From NCBI GenBank assembly GCA_002698575.1, contig NZZG01000181.1, forward strand, positions 1-44,357: DNA of 44,357 nt. The letters run 5' to 3'. A model generated the notes under the pieces. That model was not told the origin of the DNA and made no database searches. It worked only from the letters and a program-made list of their open reading frames with translations. Origin of the DNA: Pimelobacter sp. (GTDB lineage Bacteria; Actinomycetota; Actinomycetes; Propionibacteriales; Nocardioidaceae). Below are positions 11,347 to 11,489 of the stretch, in pieces (the stretch's first letter is position 1; each line of letters opens with the position of its first letter). A program made the translations under genes and the position numbers.

Positions 11347-11396
11347 CCAGCACCATCCACCATCCATCACCCACCAGGGAACTGGAGCAGTAGCTC

Positions 11397-11411
11397 ATGA
11401 GCACTCGATGA
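11397..11411 (+). CDS. Mini-ORF 1 of infB leader (MSTR)
   Basis: ATG AGC ACT CGA TGA, four codons and a stop. GGAG at 11384-11387 lies 9 nt before the ATG, a normal Shine-Dalgarno distance. Its stop overlaps the start of mini-ORF 2 as ATGA. Whether it is translated is unproven. Confidence 0.5.
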   Translation: MSTR

Positions 11412-11425
11412 GTATTTCCCGATGA
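11408..11425 (+). CDS. Mini-ORF 2 of infB leader (MSISR)
   Basis: ATG AGT ATT TCC CGA TGA. It overlaps mini-ORF 1 and mini-ORF 3 by ATGA at both ends, so a terminating ribosome could re-initiate at each step. It begins Met-Ser and ends Arg-stop like mini-ORF 1. Confidence 0.5.
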   Translation: MSISR

Positions 11426-11442
11426 GTTTGCACCACCACTGA
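11422..11442 (+). CDS. Mini-ORF 3 of infB leader (MSLHHH)
   Basis: ATG AGT TTG CAC CAC CAC TGA, ending in three His codons. The stop at 11440-11442 directly abuts the stem-loop at 11443-11477, so a ribosome stopping there would cover and open the 5' half of that stem. Confidence 0.5.
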   Translation: MSLHHH

Positions 11443-11477
11443 GGCTCGATCACGCCCACACGGACGCGGGTCGAGCC
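11443..11477 (+). promoter_or_regulatory. Stem-loop between mini-ORFs and infB
   Basis: GGCTCGA (11443-11449) pairs perfectly with TCGAGCC (11471-11477) across a 21-nt loop. It starts one base after the stop of mini-ORF 3 and ends three bases before the infB Shine-Dalgarno sequence AGGAG. The position suggests control of infB translation coupled to the mini-ORFs. Confidence 0.5.
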
Positions 11478-11489
11478 AGAAGGAGAATT

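Follow-up and report, generated by a model that had tools for sequence, protein, structure and literature searches.

A chain of overlapping few-codon open reading frames before the infB gene of Pimelobacter sp. and its conservation in the class Actinomycetes

Organisation of the infB locus

The stretch of DNA analysed here, referred to as the window, comprises 44,357 nucleotides of Pimelobacter sp. and belongs to an assembly of 4.3 Mb in 199 contigs which is 86% complete; at this locus the best named matches, among the matches listed, are to Nocardioides. According to Pfam the gene order is nusA, ylxR, infB, and the open reading frames (ORFs) which come after infB, from 14416 and 14940, are probably rbfA and truB, judging by sequence and position. 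Three minimal ORFs and a hairpin lie before infB (Table 1), and GGCTCGA of the left arm (11443-11449) is complementary to TCGAGCC of the right arm (11471-11477). This relay had been described in a first-pass annotation made from the letters of the sequence; every coordinate proved exact when checked, and all three mini-ORFs indeed begin with ATGAG. At the gathering score no Rfam family was matched at the relay or the hairpin. The sole Rfam match in the window is an ordinary Actino-pnp RNA (RF01688, 63.3 bits) at 26073-26143.

Table 1. Features of the nusA-infB region, in positions of the window (peptides are written without their stop)
Feature	Position	Strand	Basis
nusA	9882-10862		Pfam
ylxR (DUF448), gene before the relay	11032..11346	+	PF04296, E 5.6e-21
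GGAG, Shine-Dalgarno-like, of ORF1	11384..11387	+	sequence
ORF1, MSTR, ATGAGCACTCGATGA	11397..11411	+	sequence
Junction 1, ATGA, overlap of ORF1 stop and ORF2 start	11408..11411	+	sequence
ORF2, MSISR, ATGAGTATTTCCCGATGA	11408..11425	+	sequence
Junction 2, ATGA, overlap of ORF2 stop and ORF3 start	11422..11425	+	sequence
ORF3, MSLHHH, ATGAGTTTGCACCACCACTGA	11422..11442	+	sequence
Hairpin, left arm adjoining the ORF3 stop	11443..11477	+	fold, covariation
AAGGAG, Shine-Dalgarno of infB	11480..11485	+	sequence
infB (IF2), GTG start at 11490	11490..14315	+	Pfam IF-2 and IF2_N

Loci compared

The locus set was drawn from several sources. Loci L002-L031 are the best 30 matches of a search which matched 205 of 215 genomes, L032-L111 are the best 80 of 570 matches, and two ylxR searches, which matched 184 of 296 and 279 of 295 genomes, gave L112-L141 and L142-L171 as their respective best 30. 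Loci L172-L250 were hand-picked, one to several per family, and L252-L281 come from 30 genomes of families which had been missing or thinly sampled. Some genomes occur twice in the set. Left out of the counts are L001, which is the same place as the window's own locus L004, and L251, which carries a 10-base slip. There are 230 class loci, including L172, where the relay was seen and the contig gave no infB start, and L258, whose contig has no infB behind ylxR; both stand outside the 228 loci with a located infB start, among which L004 is counted. Class counts are not independent, because the loci are related; many of them are also the best matches of their searches. The shuffle, junction, Shine-Dalgarno (SD), stem-score and covariation tests were made on 183 leaders, 182 of them with a chain, before family f83 and the late families were added.

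Conservation of the chain

A chain was scored when at least three ORFs with ATG or GTG starts and 3-16 codons, joined by a 4- or 1-nt overlap, were found in the 200 nt before infB. It is present in 226 of the 228 class loci with a located infB start and in 210 of 212 unique class leaders, the class loci spanning 39 numbered families and a named set, and it was found in 0 of 49 loci of other classes of the phylum (44 with a located infB start). Loci L218 and L261 have just two linked ORFs each. With ORFs limited to 3-9 codons, nine of 183 leaders fail, eight which have longer ORFs and L218. Named genera in which the leaders were read include Nocardioides, Micromonospora, Geodermatophilus, Blastococcus, Stackebrandtia, Crossiella, Longispora and Ruania. 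The relay reads MSTR/MSTR/MSTPMK in family f3 and MSTP/VKSR/MTMRHS in f4, families which are presumably relatives of Streptomyces and Mycobacterium. In two relatives of Nocardioides (L018 and L024) four linked ORFs were seen, as if one unit had been added; L018 reads MSTR/MRPHR/MSTAR/MSLHHH.

The strongest comparison is offered by the AT-rich family f83, with small genomes of 1.2-2.2 Mb and a leader G+C of 42% vs 63% elsewhere. Of its 15 leaders 14 retain the chain, spelled in other codons, for example as MKLK/MSSLEL/MRSFN or MTL/MSTARL/MSRSI.

Chance does not produce such chains often. Dinucleotide shuffles of the 183 unique class leaders yielded a chain in 43 of 18,300 sequences when ORFs of 3-9 codons were accepted and in 191 of 18,300 for 3-16 codons, and on both strands of the window the infB chain is the sole one with at least three linked ATG or GTG ORFs of 3-9 codons. 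It is thus confirmed that the three-ORF relay before infB is a real observation, beyond chance.

Loss of the overlaps in relatives had been named beforehand as an outcome which would refute the relay. The opposite was seen, as the overlaps are kept class-wide while codons and spacers change; together with the compensatory changes of the stem this supports a reinitiation relay before infB. The accompanying question, whether ATGA-linked ORFs beginning with ATGAG persist, was answered positively for the linkage only, since the ATGAG word is local and is replaced elsewhere by ATGAA, ATGAC, ATGGG or GTGAA.

The chain before infB is not unique in the Pimelobacter genome, as uniqueness was rejected by a search of the whole assembly, in which a pattern of three ATGA words occurs at 33 places and four of these are true linked chains, the infB one included. 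Mini-ORF chains are therefore not confined to infB. At C163:211-258 on the minus strand (L339, L340) MSTA is repeated three times and followed by MSPT, all joined by ATGA in an 11-nt tandem repeat, and a further ATGA leads into an open frame which is truncated where the contig stops; its 71-residue fragment had no Pfam match. At C23:25087-25127, minus strand (L313), MSTPHEHPA and MRAR are joined by ATGA and lead by ATGA into a 212-codon ORF, and at C169:3922-3947, plus strand (L341), MSRG and MRHR lead in the same manner into a 100-codon ORF. At C182 the spacings of 12 and 9, judged from the printed match alone, cannot link. In each of these three further chains the last link is the ATGA at which a longer frame begins. 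Such chains may be a more general feature of the genome.

Junctions, spacing and peptides

It is the frame architecture and not the peptide sequence which is conserved. In the 182 leaders 37 distinct peptides were counted for ORF1, 62 for ORF2 and 109 for ORF3; ORF1 is MSTR in 110 of the 182, and elsewhere mostly a close relative of it. ORF1 mostly has 4 codons, ORF2 4-5 and ORF3 5-8, the commonest combinations of lengths being 4-5-6, 4-5-8 and 4-4-6 codons, with ORFs of up to 23 codons in some leaders. Junction 1 is ATGA in 156 leaders, GTGA in 20, TAATG in three and TGATG in three, and junction 2 is ATGA in 178 and TAATG in four, whereas the ORF3 stop, which is free of overlap, is TGA in 68, TAG in 63 and TAA in 51. 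When no frame was imposed, 320 of 357 ATGA-to-ATGA spacings were 2 mod 3; the off-frame spacings are taken to be partly steps from ORF1 to ORF3 across GTGA and partly in-frame Met codons of ORF3. ORF1 has CGA as its last sense codon in 150 of the 182 leaders, and ORF2 has it in 119. A test of open frames by shuffling of inner bases was set aside for its little power, because 3765 of 4020 shuffled frames stay open.

Sensing of an amino acid by the His run of the window was rejected, as the peptides are not conserved and the run is found in part of Nocardioides only. The conserved regulatory codon run of an attenuator was likewise not found in the 182 leaders, given the variety of ORF2 and ORF3 peptides.

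Initiation signals and the neighbouring genes

A duplex with the anti-SD sequence of at most -5 was found at 82% of 182 ORF1 sites and at 100% of 182 infB sites, vs 0.5% for ORF2 and 1.1% for ORF3 (182 sites each). Median energies, compared with shuffles of the same 15 nt, were -5.6 vs -5.0 for ORF1, -1.9 vs -1.5 for ORF2, -2.2 vs -1.7 for ORF3 and -8.3 vs -7.0 for infB. Since the energies of ORF1 and infB beat their shuffles only modestly, purine-rich composition carries most of the SD signal. From this pattern ORF1 and infB look like ordinary starts and ORF2 and ORF3 like restart sites, and the lack of an SD at the latter is consistent with translation which depends on the upstream ORF.

The relay is also linked to the gene before it. 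In 55 of 200 class loci, although not in the window, the ylxR stop lies in the ATGA of ORF1 (ylxR end at -4), so that ylxR is the first link of the chain; in 15 of 200 loci ylxR ends at -12/-15 and in 10 of 200 at -26/-29. As ylxR ends at or in the relay in these loci, the relay can also receive ylxR ribosomes.

The infB start codon is GTG in all 228 class loci, AT-rich f83 included, in comparison to 27 ATG, 9 GTG and 8 TTG starts in 44 loci of other classes; the GTG start may be part of the control. As for transcription, a peak of WhiB7 binding before infB is listed for M. abscessus (PMC10727445), and infB is counted among SigR targets in Streptomyces in an excerpt of another source (PMC5472188).

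The hairpin beside the last stop

Folded alone, the window stem has nine outer pairs including one G-U and a free energy of -22.1 kcal/mol (z -2.54; 2 of 200 shuffles were as stable), and the minimum-energy fold of the whole 164-nt window leader is a different structure without this stem. A stem was found in 204 of 212 unique leaders and is absent in eight, and in 184 of the 204 its 5' arm lies -4 to +8 nt from the last stop. In families f2 (L173) and f94 (L221) ORF3 ends early and a further linked or near-linked ORF (23 and 7 codons, respectively) ends at the hairpin. In f74 there is no hairpin, and the last stop lies 20-21 nt before infB.

The median stem score in 182 leaders was 17.5 vs 12.0 in shuffles; only 53% of the leaders stood at the 95th percentile of their shuffles or higher. 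Covariation was assessed with arms which had been anchored independently of the bases under test. Of the 182 leaders 123 could be placed in this way, and the remaining 59 were left out. The 38 distinct arm pairs were 69% paired vs 42% when shuffled (p <= 0.0005), and with one leader per family (22 families) 71% vs 59% (p about 0.0035). The stem thus shows compensatory changes across the class. It was not recovered by plain MAFFT alignment and RNAalifold in 61 Nocardioidaceae leaders because the loops vary.

The hairpin of the window is no intrinsic terminator, as AGAAGGAGAATT and not a T run follows it. The idea that the loop of the hairpin hides the infB SD, possibly in a pseudoknot, was rejected as a general rule, as the pairing in 199 leaders equals that of shuffles (median 10.5 vs 10.6; 10% of leaders at p <= 0.05). 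Such pairing is striking in L041, L046, L052, L149, L184, L257 and L222, and in some Nocardioidaceae leaders (L041, L046, L052, L149 and similar ones) the loop or arm of the hairpin pairs perfectly with the infB SD over 8-10 bases.

Proposed mechanism and its alternatives

The reading considered best, with a probability of roughly 0.6, is that the relay is a termination-reinitiation chain which brings ribosomes to infB and unfolds the hairpin, its translation and its effect on infB being suggested by the arrangement of the sequence. A ribosome would start at ORF1, or arrive from ylxR where that gene ends in the same ATGA, and would restart at the two SD-less junctions of ORF2 and ORF3. The last ribosome would terminate against the hairpin and melt its 5' arm, by which the infB SD and GUG would become reachable. 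The share of ribosomes passing through would be set by two restart probabilities multiplied together, which would make IF2 synthesis depend steeply on the ease of reinitiation, in which IF2, initiator tRNA, IF3 and the recycling factor would be concerned. Family f74, where the hairpin is missing and the last stop is near infB, is arranged as delivery would allow. The class-wide chain, the 2 mod 3 spacings, the exchange of ATGA for other junctions, f83, the SD pattern, the covarying hairpin beside the last stop and the additional ORFs of f2 and f94 also speak for this reading. Against it, infB, with its own strong SD, may also initiate without the relay; the two loci with just two linked ORFs, the modest SD excess over shuffles, the 53% of stem scores, the eight leaders lacking a stem and the whole-leader fold of the window weigh on the same side.

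The first-pass annotation proposed that the relay may be a feedback sensor of IF2 or initiator-tRNA supply; such feedback is plausible as a candidate, and it might be of either sign. According to a review, a coupled gene whose restart used an initiator tRNA defective in IF2 binding was expressed more strongly in one study when IF2 was overexpressed; IF3 lowered coupling there, and the reviewers warn of pleiotropic effects (PMC12548453). This marks infB out as a suggestive target. Under delivery of ribosomes, however, a rise in IF2 would raise infB as well, which is positive feedback, and a stabilising loop would therefore need skipping of the yeast GCN4 kind or peptidyl-tRNA drop-off by IF1 and IF2.

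By the logic of GCN4, ORF2 and ORF3 would trap restarting ribosomes as long as IF2 and initiator tRNA are abundant, letting them go at the hairpin, and when IF2 is scarce ribosomes would skip both ORFs and reach infB, giving negative feedback. Several short upstream ORFs (uORFs) before a gene tied to the supply of initiator tRNA, a hairpin adjoining the last stop which could block onward movement, the GCN4 precedent itself (PMC5972666) and the promotion of coupled reinitiation by IF2 in the one study reviewed (PMC12548453) speak for such a decoy. Nevertheless the 1-4 nt overlaps leave no scanning distance for skipping, unlike in GCN4, and in f74, which has no hairpin, the last stop is brought next to infB, which leaves this explanation unlikely.

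Drop-off would act differently: IF1 and IF2 would strip short peptidyl-tRNAs in the ORFs of 4-8 codons, and high IF2 would lower infB in a negative loop. It fits ORFs as extremely short as these. The title of a 1998 paper by Karimi and co-workers claims such a removal of short peptidyl-tRNAs by IF1 and IF2 for E. coli, which counts in its favour. However, the available text of a later source stresses RF3 and RRF and not IF2 (PMC10192219), and some relays have far longer ORFs, so this loop is held to be improbable.

It may also be supposed that the role lies at the level of mRNA, where translation of the leader would shield it from Rho and RNases, or stops in all frames would catch ylxR run-out, with restarting as a by-product. 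The reading of ylxR into the relay at the positions given above would suit this supposition, as would a window hairpin which is no intrinsic terminator. For shielding, however, one translated ORF would be enough, and plain stops would do for catching, so that exact overlaps in 210 of 212 unique leaders would be superfluous; such a role is considered decidedly improbable.

The repeated CGATGAG might instead act as a non-coding word in DNA or RNA, by binding a protein or serving as a regulatory site, with the ORFs incidental; this view draws on the frequent CGA before the junctions. It is very improbable, as the word is lost where overlaps persist (GTGA, TAATG and TGATG junctions, and the contexts of f83) and the spacings keep their 2 mod 3 rule. 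A chance chain kept by descent without function, for which the possible shared ancestry of small families and the three other mini-ORF chains in the Pimelobacter genome could be quoted, is hardly credible when most other bases, the codons and the G+C differ between leaders and the chain is kept.

Delivery of ribosomes to infB is thus held most likely because of f74, the links with ylxR and the overlaps without room to skip.

Comparison with known systems

Translational coupling by ATGA or TGATG overlaps of stop and start, at which a terminating ribosome restarts, is a close likeness described in three sources (PMC6728339, PMC12548453, PMC11260477), and AUGA-dependent termination-reinitiation has been demonstrated for a mycobacterial uORF (PMC11260477). 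Coupling requires a stop and a next start which overlap or lie within a few nucleotides, and this is found in 226 of 228 loci. The infB relay differs from the coupling described there in comprising three few-codon ORFs, the inner ones without SD, fixed class-wide, and in that a hairpin precedes infB, which takes part in no overlap.

With the GCN4 system, as far as the available text describes it (PMC5972666), the relay shares several short uORFs, here at least three linked ORFs mostly of 4-8 codons, and a target linked to the supply of initiator tRNA. Skippable spacing was not found in 182 leaders, as starts overlap the preceding stops; unlike GCN4, the relay is bacterial, its uORFs are overlapping and not spaced, and its target is the initiation factor itself. 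Leader minigenes of axe-txe, ycbK and the LEE operons (PMC8708949, available in part) are also few-codon ORFs acting in cis on the next gene, but they occur as one or two in single systems, in contrast to an overlapping chain conserved across a class.

A leader-gene study proposed, in the part available, that leader ORFs, Actinobacteria included, raise translation of the next gene by reinitiation (PMC4833913). It takes one longest ORF per gene, therefore a chain could not appear, and infB is absent from its text. Autoregulation of infC by IF3 through a rare start codon, as given in an excerpt of PMC5472188, is a case of an initiation factor which controls its own translation through the leader or start; it acts by start-codon discrimination and not by uORFs, whereas infB autoregulation is a proposal made here. 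No description of an infB uORF chain was found in the open-licence PMC literature, as far as its text was available. Reinitiation coupling is already known; a three-step chain fixed class-wide before an initiation-factor gene is unusual.

Significance

It is tentatively suggested, as a possibility of lower standing than delivery itself, that the relay is a bacterial counterpart of GCN4, in which the chain would read the reinitiation capacity of the cell (IF2 and initiator tRNA) and set IF2 synthesis in an autogenous loop as old as the class Actinomycetes. ORFs of 4-8 codons are normally passed over by gene finders. Should two restarts be needed before infB, the IF2 supply of a whole class would be steeply dependent on reinitiation, and a single reporter would be enough to ask whether IF2 governs its own production, an old question. 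The relay would then also offer a natural multi-step assay of bacterial reinitiation and show selection on ORFs as short as these.
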